30,298 bases of DNA, from positions 1 to 30,298 of the IMG/VR virus record IMGVR_UViG_3300045135_002002. One strand, given 5' to 3'. The notes below the pieces were generated by a model. That model did not search any database. It saw only the letters and a program-made list of their open reading frames with translations, and was not told the DNA's origin. A program made the position numbers and the translations under genes. Source of the stretch: a virus. Every line of letters starts with the position of its first letter. Positions within the stretch are counted from its first letter, which is position 1. This document shows, one piece after another, positions 2 to 30,271 of the stretch.

Positions 2-52
2 GAAGAAGACTTCGTAGTTGAAGAAGAAGACTTCGTAGTTGAAGAAGAACCT
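2..52 (+). repeat. In-frame 21-bp tandem repeat encoding an acidic heptad
   Basis: A 21-bp unit encoding EEDFVVE occurs about two and a half times at the left edge, in frame with the RNA polymerase. The copies are almost identical at DNA level, which suggests recent expansion. It may continue to the left of the window. It probably codes for a flexible acidic linker between domains of the large protein. Confidence 0.8.
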
Positions 53-3000
53 GTTGTGGCTAAAGACGCTTCTGTACAAGAAATGTCTGACAATAAAGCT
101 GCACTTAAAGATGTTAAGAAACGTATTGCCGAACGTCGTGCAGAACTAAGAGCTCGTAATATTACAGGCAAAGCTCAGCTAGAAGATGCAGAGCTAGTGG
201 CGTTACTAGAGCAGAAGGCTGAGCTTGACGCTACTCGTAAAGGTTTTACTAGCAAGCTTAATGACCTTACTGCTCGTAGACTAGAAGCGTTAGGGGATCG
301 TAAAGACCGTAAATTTACTCTTTACGTAAGCTATGGTGATGGTGGCAAACCTGTTGAGACTACATTAGGTGAGTTGTTTAAGACTACAGTAGCCACCGGG
401 TTTACTATTACAGAACGTACTGCGAAAAATACCTTTGCATTTACTAAAAAGTTTGCAAATAAACTTTTAGAAAACATGAAGTTAACTGGTAAGTTCCCAG
501 TTCAGATGTTTAACAAAGTCCAAGATAACCCAGCAACCTTTCTGTTGTTCGATGATAATGGTGAGTTGAACTACAATACTGTTGAAGCAATGCAATCGGC
601 AGCTTACGAGTACCTAGTTCAAGAAGCTTCTAACTTAGGCGGTGCTAATCGTACTGATGAAGAAGTAGGTGAGCTAATTGGTATTCCTGAAGAGTATGTA
701 ACTCCTGAAATGACTAATGCGTTAGCAAAAGGTGGTATTACCCTTAAATTAGCTGCAGCTGCTATTGGCGACAAAGTTATTAAGAACCTTGGCTTGCAGA
801 TTGAGTCTGTACAGGATCGTGAAGCATTAGCTACTTCCTTGGGTATTGCTACTCTTGAAGGCATTAAAGGTGACTTTGTTCAGGGCTACAATTATATTCC
901 TAGCGAAGCAGAGCGTACACGTAAACGTTACCCTATAAAAGCTAAAAGCATTCCATTTATCATTGCCTCCCCTACCTTGTTTGATCGTATGCAAGCAATC
1001 AGAGATGCTAATGACGCAGTTGAGAACACTCTAGGCGTAGAGATTGATAAAGAACGTACGTACCGTACAGCTTCTAACGCTAAGCCTCGTAAGGTAATGA
1101 TTCACCGTGCTGAATATCAAGAAGCTCCTAAGGATCATGAAGCCGTAGCTAATCGTCTTGAGCAGACTGCTTTTAGTTTTAACAGCGGACACGAAGTTCT
1201 TATGGAGATGTTCTCTAAAGAAGGTGCCCTTGATGTTAAAGCCCTTATTGAACATATCCTTGGTTCGGAAAAAGACTTTACCAACTACGATGCAAGAGAA
1301 AGCTACAAAGCTCAAAAAGAAGCTTTGAAGCGTAGTCTTATGTTCTATCAAGAAGCGTATGATGATGTTAAAGATGGTGAAATGTTCTTTAACTGGTTTA
1401 TTGCTAAAAACCACCGTATCCACCTAGATAGTAACAGACTTAACCCCCAAAATGACAAGAATCTTGCGCGTTGGTTGGTTACTACGACAAATTCCAGAAC
1501 TACAGTTTCTAAAACAGATATCAAAGAAGTACTGGATGGAAATACAGATAACATGCAAGCTAAGATGTTTGCATACGCTGTAGTACAGGCATTTGATGGT
1601 GCTAAAGGTATTCCTGGGATTGATAAAGATAATGAAGCAGAAGTACTAGCCGCTGCTAAAAAGCTTCTTGAAGAGACTCCTGAAGGTGAACTATTTAAGA
1701 TGGCTATGGATGCAGGTCATTTGGGTCATGCGGCCTTAGCAATTGCTAATATTCGTAAGTACATGGACAACGATTCATTTGAATCTGACCTAGTTCTAGA
1801 GGTAGATGGACTTACAAATGGTTTCGCGTTCAGAGCAATGCAGTTCCCTGTAGAGTCTGAAAGCAGCCCTCTTAATCCAATGCAGTGGCTTGAAAAAGTA
1901 GGTGTTATTACTGAAGAGTCAGATCTGTTTGGTTTAAGCAGTATGAATGGCGCTAGAACAGCTGGTCAAGAAGACGTATATATTTCTGTAGGCGCTATGT
2001 TCAACCAGAACATTGCAGAAGCAAAAGATAACCTGAATGAGACAAGCGCTAAATGGGTAGCGTTGTTTGAAAAACACGGTAAACTTCCAGACTTTAGCGA
2101 CTCTAATAGCGCTGATGTTAAAAAGTTTATCCGTAATCTTATGAAGTCTCCTGTAATGATCTTTAACTACGCAGCAGGTCTTGGCCGTATTGCCGGGGGT
2201 CTGGTAAATGACCAGATCATGGGTAAAGGTTATTTAAAAGGCAAAGGCCTTGTAGATTTACTTACTGCTAAAGATGAAAACAATAACTATGTTCTTACTA
2301 AAAAAGAACTAGTTGGTTCTTTTGGTGAAATGCTGGGTAACAAATACCACAAAGCTCGTGTAGCTCTTCACGAAAACAGCCTAGATAGTACACGTAATGG
2401 TGATATTACAGTACTGAAAGCTCACCTAACTAAAGCAGTTAGTGGTTTGTACACAGAGTCTTTGACAGCTACGCTAGAAACTTTGTTTAGCAAACAGACT
2501 GTTATTAACAGTACGTTTGTAAACGCTGCTCAGTTTATGTTTGACCACTTTAAAGATCAGTACAGCTTGTGGTTACTTAAGAACCCAGAAGCTACAGATG
2601 AAGCTAAGCTTGAGTTCTTGAAAGATATGGCAGCTATCATCCCAGGTGTTGGGGCAGCTAGCTCTGATGACCAGATGAATAAGATTACTTTCTTAAAGAA
2701 TGTGCTAGAACCTACTAACAATGATGTTGTAGTAAATGTTGCTGGGCAACGTATTGCAGCAAACACCGTATCTCGTACATTTGGTGAACCAGGTGTTGGT
2801 CCTGCAGTGCTAACTGTGTTATCATTAGACTCATCTGTGTTAGCCAAAACAATTAACGAATCCTACAAAGGTGTGAAAGGTCAAGCAGCGCTTCCTATTC
2901 ACGATGCTATTGTTTTAGGTATCGATGAGCATGGCGTTATTAACTCTTATAACCGTAACTTCTATACTACTAATAGAAGCTACTCTATCTCAGAAGAGTT

Positions 3001-3370
3001 TGTACGAGCTATCGAAACTTTCGAACAGAGTGTACCTGGAGCGGCTGGTATGTCTATTATTGACATTGAAGGTAAACGTGTTACTTTCAGCGAGATGAAA
3101 GCTGCTTTGGCTCAAGCTAACAACGAAATTCAAACCAAACGTAGAGAGTTGTTTGGTAAAAATGTTAAGGTTGGTCAGCTAGTAGGTCCTGAAGGAACAA
3201 TGGAATCTTACGACGTAGCTAAAATGAAAGATATGTCGAAAGCTTACATGGCTAATGTAGCAACAAATATTTTAGAAAAATTTGGTAGTGATGATGTTAA
3301 GACTGCGCTGGGCAAAGATTATGCTAAGCACATGAAAGCAATTGCCGCTATGTTAGAAGGGTGTAAGTAA
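2..3370 (+). CDS. N4-type virion RNA polymerase, C-terminal part of a protein entering from the left edge
   Basis: The frame is open at base 2, so the true start lies outside the window; 1122 residues are visible. It carries the signature of single-subunit T7/N4 RNA polymerases in the right order. A DxxR motif (DSNRLNPQND) starts at 1427. Motif A (DGLTNGF) has its catalytic Asp at 1805-1807. Motif B (RNLMKSPVMIFNY) has Arg at 2132, Lys at 2144 and Tyr at 2168, with the R-x3-K-x7-Y spacing of T7 polymerase. Motif C (PIHDAIV) has its Asp at 2903-2905. As I recall, the A-B and B-C spacings are close to those of the N4 mini-vRNAP. In N4 this enzyme is packaged, injected with the DNA and transcribes early genes; that role is inferred here. 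An acidic repeat (2-55) precedes the domain and may be a linker. The stop overlaps the next ATG by one base. A GTG at 56 is in frame but is unlikely to be the start. Confidence 0.85.
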   Translation, partial: EEDFVVEEEDFVVEEEPVVAKDASVQEMSDNKAALKDVKKRIAERRAELRARNITGKAQLEDAELVALLEQKAELDATRKGFTSKLNDLTARRLEALGDRKDRKFTLYVSYGDGGKPVETTLGELFKTTVATGFTITERTAKNTFAFTKKFANKLLENMKLTGKFPVQMFNKVQDNPATFLLFDDNGELNYNTVEAMQSAAYEYLVQEASNLGGANRTDEEVGELIGIPEEYVTPEMTNALAKGGITLKLAAAAIGDKVIKNLGLQIESVQDREALATSLGIATLEGIKGDFVQGYNYIPSEAERTRKRYPIKAKSIPFIIASPTLFDRMQAIRDANDAVENTLGVEIDKERTYRTASNAKPRKVMIHRAEYQEAPKDHEAVANRLEQTAFSFNSGHEVLMEMFSKEGALDVKALIEHILGSEKDFTNYDARESYKAQKEALKRSLMFYQEAYDDVKDGEMFFNWFIAKNHRIHLDSNRLNPQNDKNLARWLVTTTNSRTTVSKTDIKEVLDGNTDNMQAKMFAYAVVQAFDGAKGIPGIDKDNEAEVLAAAKKLLEETPEGELFKMAMDAGHLGHAALAIANIRKYMDNDSFESDLVLEVDGLTNGFAFRAMQFPVESESSPLNPMQWLEKVGVITEESDLFGLSSMNGARTAGQEDVYISVGAMFNQNIAEAKDNLNETSAKWVALFEKHGKLPDFSDSNSADVKKFIRNLMKSPVMIFNYAAGLGRIAGGLVNDQIMGKGYLKGKGLVDLLTAKDENNNYVLTKKELVGSFGEMLGNKYHKARVALHENSLDSTRNGDITVLKAHLTKAVSGLYTESLTATLETLFSKQTVINSTFVNAAQFMFDHFKDQYSLWLLKNPEATDEAKLEFLKDMAAIIPGVGAASSDDQMNKITFLKNVLEPTNNDVVVNVAGQRIAANTVSRTFGEPGVGPAVLTVLSLDSSVLAKTINESYKGVKGQAALPIHDAIVLGIDEHGVINSYNRNFYTTNRSYSISEEFVRAIETFEQSVPGAAGMSIIDIEGKRVTFSEMKAALAQANNEIQTKRRELFGKNVKVGQLVGPEGTMESYDVAKMKDMSKAYMANVATNILEKFGSDDVKTALGKDYAKHMKAIAAMLEGCK

Positions 3371-5823: not shown

Positions 5824-8800
5824 ATGAGCTGCAGCGTCAGAGGTATTACAAATTCGGTTGTTTCTGAGAACAAAGATAAGACCGAAACAAACGTCCGTAA
5901 GGCACAGAAAAGCTCTGAAGTAGACAAGGCATTAGCTACGTCTACCCCTATGGCTATTCTTACTGAATTGGTTAAGCGCACTAAGCCAACTCTTGATGGC
6001 GAAAATGTGCATATCTTAAACATCTCTCGTAACGAAGATGATCAGTTTGTTCTTAAATTCAAAGTTGGCAAGAGCAGCGAAATTATTGAAATGGTTGCGG
6101 AAGATTTCTCGTCATTTATGACAGAAGCAGAAAACTTCCAATTAGACAAAAACCATTTAGAGCGTTTCCATTCAGACTTTGACTCTATCCATACTCATGA
6201 CGATTTTGAAGAGCTGGCGCTTGATATTACTAACAACCCTGAAAAGATTTTAGAGGTTGCTCAGTCCCTTATCGATGCAGACAATTACCACAATGATGGA
6301 GAACATAACCGAGTCTTGTGGGATCAGCTAGGCCTTATTACGAACTCCCTAGTTGAGATGGTACCTAACCTTAACGTGCATATTAATAATGCAGGTAAGG
6401 CTAATTTTGGTACTATTGATGTAAACACCAATGACATCTATATTGCTAAAGGTGTAGGTGGCTCTAAGAGTTTGATGGAAATATATGTCCACGAGCTTTA
6501 CCACGCCGTAACTCACTACGCAATCAGCAGCAAAGAAACTTCTGTTCGTAAAGATACTGCTCGTATTGAACAAGTACGTGAGTATTTCTTGGCTAACACC
6601 AAAGAGTCGGACTTAGTGCGTATGTCAGGGGGTAAGATTACCACTGAACAAGCAGCTAGTTTGCTGAACCATTTGACTAACCCAGAGGTTGGTCTTCATG
6701 AATTCGTAGCACTGGCTATGACTAACAAAGCTATTATGAATCAGCTTAAGACGTTAGACATTACACAAAAGCCAATGTTTACTGAAGCTTCTCTGTTCCA
6801 CAGAATCTTGGACGCAGTATACCGTATCTTTGGGTCTATTAGCCGTAGATTAGCAAATGAGCCAGAAGGTGATGATTTGCAGCGTATGGTATTCCTAGTA
6901 ACTAGGCTCCATACGGCTCACAAAAAACCGATGGAAGCTAAGCGTTTGCTTGGTATTCGTAACCTACTGTCAATCTTTAACCCTATTGAACGTAGATTTG
7001 TAGATTATGTAAATAAGAAGATTGAAGAAGGTAAGAAAGATATTGGCCGTAACGCACCTAAAGAGGGTGAGGGTAACGCCAAGTTCTACGCTAGACTAGC
7101 TGTAAGATCTTTTTACGATGATCAGGCCAGAGATATTATTGGTAATACTCTTAGCTTAGCTACGTTTAGAGGTGGGTATTCACCATTCGCACCTGAAGGT
7201 ACCGTACGCACTATTTTAAGAGATTCTTTTGAATCAGATATGACCCAGGACCAGGTTGAGGCCCAGGGTATGATTTCGCAGAATATCGACCAGCAGCGTG
7301 AGTTTAGAGCTATCCAGACTGCTGAAGTAATTCTAAAAAGTTTTAGTCGTGATTTGACTGAAGAAGAAGAAATTGCACTAACAGATACGGTACTGGATAC
7401 CGATTTATCTGCAATTTACTACAACTATGATGTTGCTTCTTTATTGGAAGACAATAACAATATCCGAAAAGCAGAAGACGCCGTAATTAAAAAGTTAAAA
7501 GCTTTAACTGATGGTGAAAGTGTAAACTTTTACGAGGCTCAGACTGAACTGTTAGCTGCTTACATGATTCAAGGTACTGATAATATTGCGTTGCTATTGA
7601 ATGCAGATAACATTGCTAAGAAGCTTGATACTGTTAATGAAGATCTGAACGTGTCTAAAGAAATTATTAATCTAGTAGACGAACTCGCTAGTTTAAAAGC
7701 TCTTAGACGTGTCAATAAAAAACAAAAAGCTACTTTACGTAAGCTCATTGATGAAGAAGCAGGCGGTATTGATAACTTAGTAGCATTCCAATTTGGCCAG
7801 AAAGAGTATGCGGAACGTGAAGTGTTCCCAACTATGACTGATAAAATGAAGATTATTAAAGGTTACTCTGCTCAAATTACTGATCCAGATATTGATGTAA
7901 CCATTGCCCCTGTATCAAAACAGGCTGAGCTTAAAGCACAAGGTTTTGTACTTAAGAAGACCCTAGTTAAGCATAACATGGATGGTAATAAGACCCCAAT
8001 GGCTCTGTATGTAAATAACAGATTCATTAGTCAAAGATTCCATAGAGTTGGTTTGAGAATTACGGACAAAGCCCGTAGAGGTACTACTGTAACGGAAAGC
8101 TACAGTATGGGTAGTGACAGTAACCCTACATTAAAAGCTGCTGCAGACATTCGTAAAATGCGTGAGCGCCGTGCTGAAGTGGTTAAGCTTATGATGAGCG
8201 GCCAGTATAAGGCCGAGGATGTGGAAAGTGATGGCTTAGTAACACCAAACCTAAACAATAGTGGTCGTGTTAAGGACTTCCGTTATGGTATGGATAAACA
8301 AGTTAAGCTTGATATCTTAGATATGGAACGGAAAGTAAGTACCGTCATGGGACGTACTGCGGCATCTACTTACGATAAGAAAGCTACAGACAACTTTAAC
8401 AAACAGTTGCTAGATCTTATTGTACAGGATGCAACCGATAACCTGAAGCCAGGACAGGTTAGCGTTATTGGTAAAAACCAAAAAGAATATATTAAAATCG
8501 AAAAGAATTCGCTTAATAAACAAGTTGCTGATTTGTGGAGAATTTTACCAGAAGCGGTGAAGAAAGAGTTCCCAGAAGGGTTTACTCTTAGAAGAGACTT
8601 GATGCACTCGTACCTAGGTTACAGGGAAATGAGTATTACGGATATTCCTGTTCTTAAAGGATTCCTAGAGACTAACCCTAGAGCTTATAAAGCAGCTATC
8701 AAGTATGCATTACAGTTTGCTGAAAAACTGTGGCAAGAACTAATTAAGATATCTAAAGCAGATATCATTATCAGAACACCAGGCGTATTCATTGGCAATG

Positions 8801-9612
8801 TAGTTAGTAACTTCATGCTAATGTATGTGTCAGGGTATTCATTTAAAGAAATTACAAGATTAAAATATCAGGGAGTGAAGGAGCTTAAGTTGTATGTAGA
8901 CGGACTAAAAGAGTCTCTACAGCTAGAAGCTAAAGACAACGCTGGTATCTTGACTGTTACAGAAAGAAGACGCCTTAACGTTATTAAAAACAACTTAATT
9001 AATAGCCCAGTAAAAGACCTAGTTGATGAAGGTTTTTACACTACTATTATGGAAGAAATGGAGCATGGGAGTGACTCAGGAAGTTACTTCAATAAACTAG
9101 CTAAGAAGAAGCTACAGAAAGTTCCTAAGATTTTTAGTGACGGCGTTGATTTACTTTATATTACAGAGAACACAAAGTTATTCAAGCTTATTGAGAAAAG
9201 CATCCAGGCGTCTGATTTTGCTGCGCGTTACGCTCAGTATCACCTGATGATTGAGAAGGGTGTTAAAAAAGAAAAGGCTGTTAAGATTGTGCGTGATAAC
9301 TTTATCAACTACAACAAACCTAACAGCCGATTTATGGAATGGGCTAACCAAATGGGCTTTGTAATGTTTACTAAGTACTTTACACGTATTCAACGAGTAA
9401 TTCGTGACTACGGTAAAAACCATCCTGCTAAAGTAATGCTTTCGATTCTTGCACAGGATTATGTCTTAGGCGATATTGATGACTTTACAGATCAATCAGT
9501 ATTAACTAAAGACATGGGTAACTTATTCTACAACCCGTTTGATAACCTACTCCGAGTAATTACCCCAACCTCAGCCGAAGCTGTAGATTGGGTGTTAAAC
9601 GGTGGACGTTAA
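5824..9612 (+). CDS. Giant probable virion protein with N-terminal zincin-like domain
   Basis: 1262 residues. The N-terminal third contains HELYH (residues 223-227) followed by an HEFVALA segment (292-298), whose Glu fits the third zinc ligand of gluzincin-type peptidases. The remainder, about residues 370-1262, is rich in charged helices and matches no family I can name by eye. A stretch near 980-1000 (TPGVFIGNVVSNF and following) is the most hydrophobic part. The start follows an AAAGG-like ribosome-binding sequence, 3 bases after the helicase gene. Its place as the last gene of the + strand block, where N4 encodes the C-terminal encapsidation domain of its virion RNA polymerase, suggests it may be the detached equivalent of that domain. 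This is inference from position only. Its stop overlaps the stop of the convergent gene. Confidence 0.65.
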   Translation: MSCSVRGITNSVVSENKDKTETNVRKAQKSSEVDKALATSTPMAILTELVKRTKPTLDGENVHILNISRNEDDQFVLKFKVGKSSEIIEMVAEDFSSFMTEAENFQLDKNHLERFHSDFDSIHTHDDFEELALDITNNPEKILEVAQSLIDADNYHNDGEHNRVLWDQLGLITNSLVEMVPNLNVHINNAGKANFGTIDVNTNDIYIAKGVGGSKSLMEIYVHELYHAVTHYAISSKETSVRKDTARIEQVREYFLANTKESDLVRMSGGKITTEQAASLLNHLTNPEVGLHEFVALAMTNKAIMNQLKTLDITQKPMFTEASLFHRILDAVYRIFGSISRRLANEPEGDDLQRMVFLVTRLHTAHKKPMEAKRLLGIRNLLSIFNPIERRFVDYVNKKIEEGKKDIGRNAPKEGEGNAKFYARLAVRSFYDDQARDIIGNTLSLATFRGGYSPFAPEGTVRTILRDSFESDMTQDQVEAQGMISQNIDQQREFRAIQTAEVILKSFSRDLTEEEEIALTDTVLDTDLSAIYYNYDVASLLEDNNNIRKAEDAVIKKLKALTDGESVNFYEAQTELLAAYMIQGTDNIALLLNADNIAKKLDTVNEDLNVSKEIINLVDELASLKALRRVNKKQKATLRKLIDEEAGGIDNLVAFQFGQKEYAEREVFPTMTDKMKIIKGYSAQITDPDIDVTIAPVSKQAELKAQGFVLKKTLVKHNMDGNKTPMALYVNNRFISQRFHRVGLRITDKARRGTTVTESYSMGSDSNPTLKAAADIRKMRERRAEVVKLMMSGQYKAEDVESDGLVTPNLNNSGRVKDFRYGMDKQVKLDILDMERKVSTVMGRTAASTYDKKATDNFNKQLLDLIVQDATDNLKPGQVSVIGKNQKEYIKIEKNSLNKQVADLWRILPEAVKKEFPEGFTLRRDLMHSYLGYREMSITDIPVLKGFLETNPRAYKAAIKYALQFAEKLWQELIKISKADIIIRTPGVFIGNVVSNFMLMYVSGYSFKEITRLKYQGVKELKLYVDGLKESLQLEAKDNAGILTVTERRRLNVIKNNLINSPVKDLVDEGFYTTIMEEMEHGSDSGSYFNKLAKKKLQKVPKIFSDGVDLLYITENTKLFKLIEKSIQASDFAARYAQYHLMIEKGVKKEKAVKIVRDNFINYNKPNSRFMEWANQMGFVMFTKYFTRIQRVIRDYGKNHPAKVMLSILAQDYVLGDIDDFTDQSVLTKDMGNLFYNPFDNLLRVITPTSAEAVDWVLNGGR

Positions 9613-14996: not shown

Positions 14997-15028
14997 GGGG
15001 GTTAAATCCTTAACGTTAAGAACCTTTG

Positions 15029-15057
15029 ATTATAGGTCAGCCCATGGAAAAAAGCAA
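15029..15057 (-). promoter_or_regulatory. Sigma-70-like promoter for the ferritin-like gene
   Basis: On the - strand TTGCTT (15052-15057) and a perfect TATAAT (15029-15034) are separated by 17 bases. Transcription would start near 15022, about 25 bases before the ATG at 14996. The -10 box is consensus; the -35 box is only partial (TTG matches). It would be read by the host polymerase. Confidence 0.6.
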
Positions 15058-15059
15058 TA

Positions 15060-15190
15060 GGTCCTGGTGATTATCGAGCACCCCACCAGGAAGGCTAACA
15101 GGCCGGAAAACGTAGCCTTGCTCTAATACCACAGGAGGCAACTGTTATACACAATATACTCTCTCTCAGGTTTACGCTAACCTGTGGTAT
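15060..15190 (-). ncRNA. Candidate structured intergenic RNA downstream of the DNA polymerase gene
   Basis: The 201-base gap 14997-15197 has no gene. Read on the - strand it can form a 10-bp outer helix (15181-15190 with 15126-15135, ATACCACAGG/CCTGTGGTAT), a 7-bp helix (15113-15119 with 15091-15097) and a 7-bp helix (15084-15090 with 15063-15069). An alternative hairpin, CAGGTT/AACCTG at 15167-15184, uses bases of the outer helix, so the two cannot form together. A run of six T follows about nine bases after the last helix. It could be a 3' UTR element, a processed small RNA or a switch. No known family is recognised. Confidence 0.45.
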
Positions 15191-15197
15191 GCCTAAG

Positions 15198-28621: not shown

Positions 28622-28819
28622 TTATTTTTGGTTATTGATACATACAAGTTGGGTACCATTTGGAGGTAACCCATTGTAAGCGCCTAGGTGTACTAGGGCT
28701 TCATCTCGTCCAGCAAAACACTCTTCCATAGTGTCAAATTGCCACCATGCGTCAATATGAGGTTCGTCATAGCCGGAAGGGTAGGTTAGCATAACATTAA
28801 TGAATACAAGCATCCACAT
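28622..28819 (-). CDS. Small protein of unknown function
   Basis: 65 residues. It begins with a short hydrophobic run (MWMLVFINVML), too short for a clear membrane helix, followed by a WWQFDTMEECFAGRDEA segment. The ribosome-binding AAAGGAC is well spaced. It is the first protein gene after the 1.1-kb RNA region. Its function cannot be seen. Confidence 0.6.
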   Translation of the reverse strand: MWMLVFINVMLTYPSGYDEPHIDAWWQFDTMEECFAGRDEALVHLGAYNGLPPNGTQLVCINNQK

Positions 28820-28848
28820 GTTAATGTCCTTTCTTTAGAAAAAATAAG

Positions 28849-28886
28849 TGAAGCACTCGACCAGGTAGTCCTAATCCTTATCTTCA
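28849..28886 (-). repeat. Hairpin module, copy 1, of the large RNA
   Basis: The stem TGAAG/CTTCA (28849-28853 with 28882-28886) encloses a 28-base loop that contains ATAAGGATTAGGACTAC on the - strand (28865-28881). GATAATG precedes it in both copies. A U-rich stretch follows, so it may act as a terminator as well as a structural module. Confidence 0.65.
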
Positions 28887-29194
28887 TTATCAACCTGACG
28901 ATCTGCTCAGGGAACTCTGCGACTATACAGCAATCGTGCAAGTCTCGTTAATTACAAAGTGGGTCTTCTCGGGCTAAGCTTGGGAGGTGTTGTTAATAGT
29001 AACCTCCACGATTTAAGCATCACCGTGAATAAGGTAAAGAGCATCGCTACACTTTTAAGGGCACATCTTGTCCCACCTTAATGAGCAACTTTAAGCTTCT
29101 TGCCACCACAGCTTCAGCAAACCCAGTACCTAGGGTGTTGAATTAAGGCTACTCTCCCTCAGCGATTAGGGTTGGTTAGTCTTTAGTTGCGCTC

Positions 29195-29278
29195 TTTAGA
29201 ATAGACACTGGGTCTGGGCCACGTCATGAGGGCATCGACCATCCTCCCTCGACTAATCACCACAATGTCTATTCTAAA
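29195..29278 (-). repeat. 13-bp long-range helix closing a domain of the large RNA
   Basis: TTTAGAATAGACA (29195-29207) is perfectly complementary to TGTCTATTCTAAA (29266-29278), enclosing 58 bases. Its arms nearly match those of the helix at 29592-29755. Confidence 0.7.
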
Positions 29279-29591
29279 AAGTGAGGGTTTTATTATTTAA
29301 GGACGGATAACCCACAACCATGTCCACATAGGTTCTGTTAACAAGCATCTTCCGCTCTTCACCACGCTTAGTGGACAGAACCTCGGGTAACACCTTTACC
29401 GTCACGGACTTGACCTTGTTACAGGTAGTGTGCAATCATGTTTCCATGTACCCTGTTGCAATACTCCGAATCCAAGAAACCGCAATCGTGTTTCTTATCT
29501 AACCACCTGCCTATTTCGCTGGCGTTAGTGGATCGGGAAAGGCACACTGGAGAAACCCGCAGTTTGTGACGAGCCCCTTGATCCAATGTGC

Positions 29592-29755
29592 TTTAGAATA
29601 TACACTTATTTTTATTGCCCGATAGCCTAGGATTTGGCAGGGTCTGGATAGTGCGTCAACGAGGTAGCTACTCCTCTTCAAAGACTGGCTATTACATTTA
29701 CCGTTCACGCCTGGGATCAACCACACTGAACGCAACCCTAAGTGTATATTCTAAA
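29592..29755 (-). repeat. 17-bp long-range helix closing a second domain of the large RNA
   Basis: TTTAGAATATACACTTA (29592-29608) is perfectly complementary to TAAGTGTATATTCTAAA (29739-29755), enclosing 130 bases. Compared with the helix at 29195-29278, one position differs on both strands (G-C there, T-A here), keeping the pairing. Confidence 0.75.
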
Positions 29756-29760
29756 AAAAG

Positions 29761-29800
29761 TGCGGAGGTACGACCGAGTAGTCCCAATCCTTATTCCGCA
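29761..29800 (-). repeat. Hairpin module, copy 2, of the large RNA
   Basis: The stem TGCGGA/TCCGCA (29761-29766 with 29795-29800) encloses a loop holding ATAAGGATTGGGACTAC on the - strand (29778-29794), identical to copy 1 in 16 of 17 bases. The stem sequence differs from copy 1, but pairing is kept. Confidence 0.65.
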
Positions 29801-29949
29801 TTATCTGCCCATGTGTACATCACAGGACTTACAATACCAGCCGACTCACCACTGTCGTAGTCTGCCACACTACAACCATTTACCTCACCACCCTTGAGCG
29901 TGAGCGCCGATTTGAGCATCGTTGAGAGGCTTGGCGGGTGCCTTTAATT

Positions 29950-30025
29950 TGGCTCCCCGAGCTGGACTCGAACCAGCGACATACGGATTAACAGTCCGGT
30001 GTTCTACCAACTGAACTATCGGGGA
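29950..30025 (-). tRNA. tRNA-Asn (anticodon GTT)
   Basis: A complete cloverleaf with acceptor TCCCCGA/TCGGGGA, anticodon stem CCGGA/TCCGT (last pair a mismatch or wobble) with loop CTGTTAA, T-arm GTTCGAGTC, and encoded CCA at 29950-29952. The anticodon lies at 29990-29992. Its 3' end directly abuts the large structured RNA, and its 5' end is 9 bases from the stop of the upstream gene, so both are probably released from one transcript by tRNA processing. Confidence 0.97.
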
Positions 30026-30034
30026 ATAATGGTT

Positions 30035-30271
30035 TTAATACTTAGTTACGCGTTCTACGTATTTTTTAGATTCTTCACTAACAAAAGAGTACATTTTCTG
30101 TGCTTCTTTCATTAGATCTTCTAAAGAATACATTTTAGGCATATCAGCAACGGCTTTTTCGCCAGCTTCAATTGCTTTACGTACAGCTTCAGTATTAAGT
30201 TCTAGTTGTTTATCCATGTAGTCTTTAGCCATAGCTAGGACGTCTGAACGAATTTCATATGCATTTTTCAT
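30035..30271 (-). CDS. Small helical protein conserved in phages (unknown function)
   Basis: 78 residues, almost entirely helical and charged, with heptad-like spacing (AYEIRSDVLAMAKDYMDKQ and SLEDLMKEAQKMYSFV). The start AYEIRSDVLAMA resembles small proteins I recall from marine T4-like phages, but no function is known to me. AAAGG lies about seven bases before the ATG. It is the most upstream gene of the - strand block in the window. Confidence 0.6.
   Translation of the reverse strand: MKNAYEIRSDVLAMAKDYMDKQLELNTEAVRKAIEAGEKAVADMPKMYSLEDLMKEAQKMYSFVSEESKKYVERVTKY

Follow-up and report, generated by a model that had tools for sequence, protein, structure and literature searches.

The gene-free stretch at 28840–29949 of an uncultured phage genome is best explained as an accessory, tRNA-linked mosaic array of structured-RNA modules that are exchanged separately and lie on the minus strand. 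Its first unit, an abiF RNA hairpin followed by a terminator-like T element, is probably an antitoxin decoy against host AbiF/AbiD toxins (probability about 0.6). The window, that is, the whole stretch of DNA analysed, is a 30,298-base IMG/VR virus record. The phage is marine and related to known Alteromonas phages. Its DNA polymerase shares 68% identity with the enzyme of Alteromonas phage vB_AmaP_AD45-P1, a phage with an N4 gp43-like primase annotation, and this match points to Alteromonadales as the likely host order. Two very large ORFs without any Pfam match (window 2–3370 and 5824–9612, plus strand; 1122 and 1262 aa) face the replication genes. In AD45-P1, a group I intron (L024:3525–3789; RF00028, 105.7 bits) separates two thymidylate synthase fragments and is adjoined by HNH and GIY-YIG nuclease genes.

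The original prediction described a stretch without genes, directly behind a tRNA, in DNA whose other gaps are small, and this description held throughout. Neither strand carries a gene: between the tRNA and the gene starting at 28819 no ORF, whatever its frame, exceeds 81 aa, and ten ORFs taken from the stretch gave no protein homologues among PHROGs at E ≤ 0.1. Other gaps in the ORF list reach about 200 bases at most, the largest being 14997–15197, and tRNA-Asn immediately precedes the stretch on the same strand (Table 1). A 280-nt segment shared with IMG/VR contig L003 is 91% identical and is unlike coding DNA, because the differences are single-base indels. The syntenic thioredoxin/primase/rIIA neighbourhood of AD45-P1, the nearest isolate, has neither a tRNA nor gene-free DNA, and we therefore regard the stretch as accessory cargo.

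Read along the minus strand, the array is made of two units. The first (29939–29753, ~190 nt) is the abiF RNA with its terminator-like T element; the second (29755–28840) joins the further modules and again ends in T. Since both T elements are followed by U runs, at least two transcripts, of ~190 and ~900 nt, are suggested. A simple terminator scan listed neither T element, because their loops are long. The arm sequence of I2 recurs in H and in the u1 and u4 units of relatives. The abiF-core-like repeat near the low end scores below the Rfam thresholds, and no second abiF motif is claimed at 29027–29007.

Table 1. Features of the array and the basis on which each was delimited, from the tRNA to the array end.
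Feature	Position	Strand	Basis
tRNA-Asn (GTT), array head	29950..30025	-	ARAGORN; Rfam RF00005, 70.5 bits
abiF RNA hairpin (antitoxin motif)	29905..29939	-	RF03085, 45.4 bits against a gathering score of 37
Linker between abiF hairpin and T element, kept in L004	29837..29904	-	79% identity over the entire abiF+T unit, L004
T element copy 1: two covarying stems (core 29799-29762), then U run	29753..29836	-	copies in L002, L003, L004, L005, L026
I2 unit: perfect 17-bp helix TTTAGAATATACACTTA/TAAGTGTATATTCTAAA around 130 nt	29592..29755	-	inverted repeat I2
u2 unit (GCACATTGG...CCAGTGTGC)	29530..29591	-	L026 100% identical over 57 nt; 3' end also in L003
V module, core 29428-29393 CTACCTGTAACAAGGTCAAGTCCGTGACGGTAAAGG	29380..29465	-	Vibrio, T4-like and rV5-like phages, T4 itself; covariation
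V-H intervening stretch	29286..29379	-	conserved in L003 (96%), partly in L026
H module: long outer helix TTTAGAATAGACATTG/CAGTGTCTATTCTAAA, conserved core inside	29193..29285	-	covariance model R1, 109.6 bits
Stretch on the low side of H	29028..29192	-	only the low end (~31 nt) matches L003
CACGGTGATGCTTAAATCGTG, abiF-core-like	29007..29027	-	repeat D2; also in L003; below Rfam thresholds, not an RF03085 match
T element copy 2 (core 28886-28849), U run, array end	28840..28962	-	24-nt core 88% identical to copy 1

Complementary segments had also been claimed for the stretch and are present, as a perfect 17-bp inverted repeat (29592–29608/29739–29755) and a 17/19 repeat (29192–29210/29263–29281). 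Folding energy of the whole region on the minus strand (z = −3.0) was considered as proof of structure and rejected: seven coding stretches of the same phage, taken as controls, gave z −1.6 to −7.4, equally low or lower, so the value is not unusual. Structure is proved instead by the way relatives covary, at least in the case of module H. This module was located in IMG/VR contigs L003, L017, L026 and L027, in E. coli phage flopper (L028), in the Chaseviridae Faunus, SSEM1 and 4HA13, and in the Gamaleyavirus N4-like coliphages Mimir124 and VTCCBPA_322. The H covariance model (R1), built on six sequences, recovered 11/11 phage loci at E < 1e-9. In the eleven-sequence alignment, which was fitted to the model and thereby favours pairing (five of the sequences stood outside model building), 96.5% of cells are paired and 21 of 30 pairs have changed on both sides, a level that 0/500 shuffles reach; here and below, shuffle counts are not probabilities, because the aligned sequences are related. 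Slid versions of the alignment had at most 6 pairs with changes on both sides, and an unfitted six-sequence alignment had double-sided changes in 11/30 pairs (0/500 shuffles).

Compensatory changes in the H arms also bear on the possibility that the related arms bordering several units (I2, H, u1 and u4; TTTAGAATA...TATTCTAAA) are those of a MITE-like mobile repeat with no RNA function. We consider this very improbable, since in distant phages the arms differ in sequence but covary, around a core that is conserved.

H also lies in other gene-free DNA. Escherichia phage VTCCBPA_322 has a 1.86-kb gene-free stretch containing H (37383–39240; L043:4384–6241), where several sequences resembling tRNA T arms (GGTTCGAATCC) lie in degenerate surroundings. 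E. coli phages of the flopper/GJ1 type share a conserved gene-free stretch of ~1 kb with H and further inverted segments (L028:10000–11130, L037:2001–2928), parts of which are matched by 238 phage records.

Covariation support is weaker for V and T than for H. The 14 V sequences are 95.9% paired over seven pairs, with a covariation score of 0.29 vs 0.08 for shuffled alignments (0/500), and the 7 T sequences are 92.9% paired over 17 pairs, five of which show changes on both sides (1–2/500 shuffles). A search with V returned 931 phage records at E ≤ 0.1. V stands alone in T4-like phages, among them T4, where it is placed between denV and vs.8, and in Vibrio phages it lies in gene-free stretches adjoining tRNAs. 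In T4 record OL964735 it occupies 62398–62477 (L018:2501–2580) and is annotated in part as the beginning of a hypothetical protein; T4-like and rV5-like phage records with relatives number in the hundreds. V had no match in E. coli genomes, and the idea that it copies a conserved bacterial RNA was dropped after a pattern scan across 84,980 species yielded no more than three hits, put down to chance: two at the start of one fabG-like reading frame (Pseudoalteromonas) and one within a long coding ORF (Pandoraea). The H covariance model found nothing in 369 gammaproteobacterial genomes, a search run without a positive control genome. H and V being absent from the bacterial genomes searched, any action of theirs on the host would not be by way of copying a conserved host RNA visible to such searches.

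How the modules are arranged in other phages argues for a mosaic. L003 reads tRNA-Cys, u1, u2, V, H, u4, X, Y, T, tRNA-Met, and L026 reads tRNA-Cys, further units, u2, V, H, u4, X, abiF+T, tRNA-Met, so that the order u2-V-H is common to these two contigs and the window. L017 has the order H, X, Y, V; L004 has tRNA-Pro followed by abiF+T; and L002 and L005 have T alone, behind a protein gene. A pattern scan for Y gained no new contigs.

The stretch had been proposed as a single giant RNA of the GOLLD or ROOL kind or, failing that, as a new class of large RNA. Membership of GOLLD or ROOL was ruled out by the Rfam covariance models, which gave no match in 28780–30040 even at E ≤ 5, and the suggested cage or packaging role found no support in this analysis. 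A single ornate RNA of ~1.1 kb with GOLLD/ROOL-like architecture and swappable peripheral domains, the abiF hairpin among them, would agree with the size, the tRNA linkage and the constant u2-V-H order. It would also be in keeping with phage ICP1, whose most abundant transcript has been traced to an orf-less region of ~1 kb (PMC7567579): 40 nt are common to a 1-kb gene-free region of ICP1 (ICP1_2005_A, L013:1855–2865) and the array of Vibrio phage 1.193.O, and this ICP1 region is, from its size and place, likely the reported transcript source. Against one RNA stand the missing model match, the different order in L017, the U run after the abiF-T unit, and the solo occurrence of V (T4-like phages), abiF+T (L004) and T (L002, L005), and we rate it as quite unlikely. 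What stood of the earlier proposal is a structured, non-coding, tRNA-linked minus-strand RNA that is mostly outside Rfam. The single new class was not supported: besides abiF, a known small RNA, the stretch has no fewer than three elements without a name (H, V and T), and these parts are reordered, recombined or found alone elsewhere; 28840–29949 is probably not one giant RNA.

The known element of the array is the abiF hairpin. Positions 29936–29905 agree with the RF03085 consensus at 32/32 positions, the score lies above the curated gathering threshold (Table 1), and the loop is identical to the conserved abiF loop CCUCU-AAC-AUGCUCAAAU. In phages Thibault, Acj61, S-SZBM1 and Mimi the abiF stems differ yet, by eye, stay paired. 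ARAGORN calls of permuted tmRNA overlap the abiF motif in two IMG/VR contigs (L048:7824–8219 and L062:5209–5614; tags ANDDVYTEDFALAA and AANDDVYTEDFALAA). The RNA RCd22 of C. difficile, which has two abiF motifs, binds AbiF directly, neutralising the toxin both in cis and in trans; abiF-motif RNA neutralised AbiF in both C. difficile and E. coli, and the structure of an AbiF–ncRNA complex from a Prevotellaceae bacterium has been solved (PDB 8vz6; PMC12373285).

Where an AbiF toxin–antitoxin system has its Abi_2 gene directly downstream of the RNA, the window, a genome fragment, holds no Abi_2 (PF07751), and its abiF is accordingly an orphan RNA and not an AbiF system. Abi_2 was likewise absent from nine other phage records. 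Five of these belong to isolates that carry the motif: Thibault, Acj61, S-SZBM1, PZL-Ah8 and Mimi, the Mimi copy falling below the gathering score. Among 28 IMG/VR contigs with the strict motif pattern, 26 are without Abi_2 and 2 have it. Half of the orphan motifs (13/26) lie ≤400 nt from a same-strand tRNA, with 2.3 expected by chance position; some of these contigs are mutually related and IMG/VR contigs may be fragments.

These counts weigh on a reading of the hairpin as part of a remnant or complete phage-borne AbiF defence (superinfection exclusion) whose toxin gene was lost or lies outside the fragment. Such defences are known from prophages (PMC12373285), and Abi_2 accompanies the motif in the two viral contigs; none of the five isolate records has Abi_2, and conservation of motif and T together in L004 and L026, again without the toxin, is unexpected under decay. 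We hold this reading to be improbable.

On the host side, 395 genomes of Alteromonadales, the order of Pseudoalteromonas, contained two motif matches above the cut-off under strict filters. Each sits immediately upstream of an Abi_2 gene classed by PADLOC as AbiD, and one of the encoded proteins matches AbiF bound to its RNA (PDB 8vz6) at E 7.6e-45. With only 2/395 genomes carrying the motif, AbiF defence is not common in the order by this measure, which counts against a decoy. A plasmid search returned a single weak abiF-like match.

A decoy should look like an antitoxin RNA carried by a phage without the toxin gene, and an antitoxin-like RNA of this kind was found, the window itself being only a fragment. 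The case for a decoy is built on a gene-free, mosaic region, on covarying modules, on the abiF identity, on a toxin gene that all but a few of the phage carriers lack, and on host systems of the same bacterial order in which this RNA adjoins that gene. The array would be read from the minus strand, with transcription starting upstream of the tRNA and yielding two T-terminated transcripts, the first an RNA of ~190 nt with the abiF hairpin and the terminator-like T. Upon infection of a host with AbiF/AbiD (Abi_2), in which the toxin would otherwise be freed, the phage-supplied abiF RNA would probably bind and silence it, as a counter-defence. The AbiF/AbiD (Abi_2) toxin is a HEPN RNase, and a site beside tRNAs would, we conjecture, suit a toxin whose target is RNA. 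An RNA antitoxin can be restricted to its cognate toxin, which also counts against a decoy.

The modules might instead be cis-acting elements for processing, termination or leading of the tRNA and early transcript, the hairpin being a stable 3' end that resembles abiF. T is terminator-like (stem and U run), V precedes vs.8 in many T4-like phages and all modules adjoin tRNAs; a terminator, however, needs far less than an exact 32-nt consensus that includes unpaired conserved letters, and the genes next to V and H differ between phages. On balance we judge this unlikely, and prefer a decoy for the first unit.

For the other modules we can offer guesses: H, V and T could be counter-defence RNAs, and H, V, u2 and I2 could be host-directed. 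More tentatively than for abiF itself, phages may keep arrays of RNA cassettes in their tRNA clusters, structured RNAs swapped singly between unrelated phages as a joint arsenal against host defences, with abiF the first whose target is known and H, V and T new families aimed at host factors; we think this doubtful as a whole. That the searches made gave no bacterial counterpart of H and V argues against mimicry of host RNAs. If the proposals are true, RNA decoys for AbiF toxins are widespread among phages whose hosts differ greatly, and are sited at phage tRNA places, and some unexplained gene-free phage DNA is a catalogue of host-directed RNAs. Knock-outs of H and V are feasible at once, because both occur in laboratory-growable phages (V in T4).

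The abiF RNA family, an orphan abiF in a cyanophage (PMC9964418) and RNA antitoxin mimicry for ToxIN are already known; our search of the open-licence literature found neither abiF decoys nor cassette-like exchange of such RNAs described, and H, V and T nowhere treated as RNA families. GOLLD and ROOL resemble the array in size range, phage origin and tRNA neighbourhood, but the array is modular and mosaic and has parts that stand solo elsewhere. The abundant orf-less transcript of ICP1 is likewise a ~1-kb gene-free phage RNA, linked by 40 nt to a V-bearing Vibrio array (PMC7567579); ICP1, however, has no tRNA and no direct match to the window.

Closer to the first unit are the abiF RNAs of AbiF/AbiD systems (RCd22; PbAbiF-ncRNA, PDB 8vz6). 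The hairpin and conserved loop in the window are the family consensus and the same RNA precedes Abi_2 genes in Alteromonadales, whereas the window copy has no adjacent toxin gene, is followed by a T element and sits in a tRNA-linked array; RCd22 also has two motifs against one above threshold here. The abiF sRNA of cyanophage S-CREM1 is an orphan hairpin in a lytic phage as well, but in the available part of that report it is merely listed as an Rfam match, with no decoy proposal and no array or module context (PMC9964418). RNA anti-CRISPRs (Racrs) are small phage RNAs that copy an RNA component of a host defence, although what they copy are CRISPR repeats (PMC10651486). In the pseudo-ToxI of phage phiTE, an RNA mimic of a type III antitoxin that acts against ToxIN, the mechanism is the one proposed here, a phage RNA antitoxin silencing a host abortive-infection toxin, with another toxin family and another RNA; the phiTE RNA arose in escape mutants (PMC3475682), whereas many unrelated phages carry the abiF motif as a fixed part.
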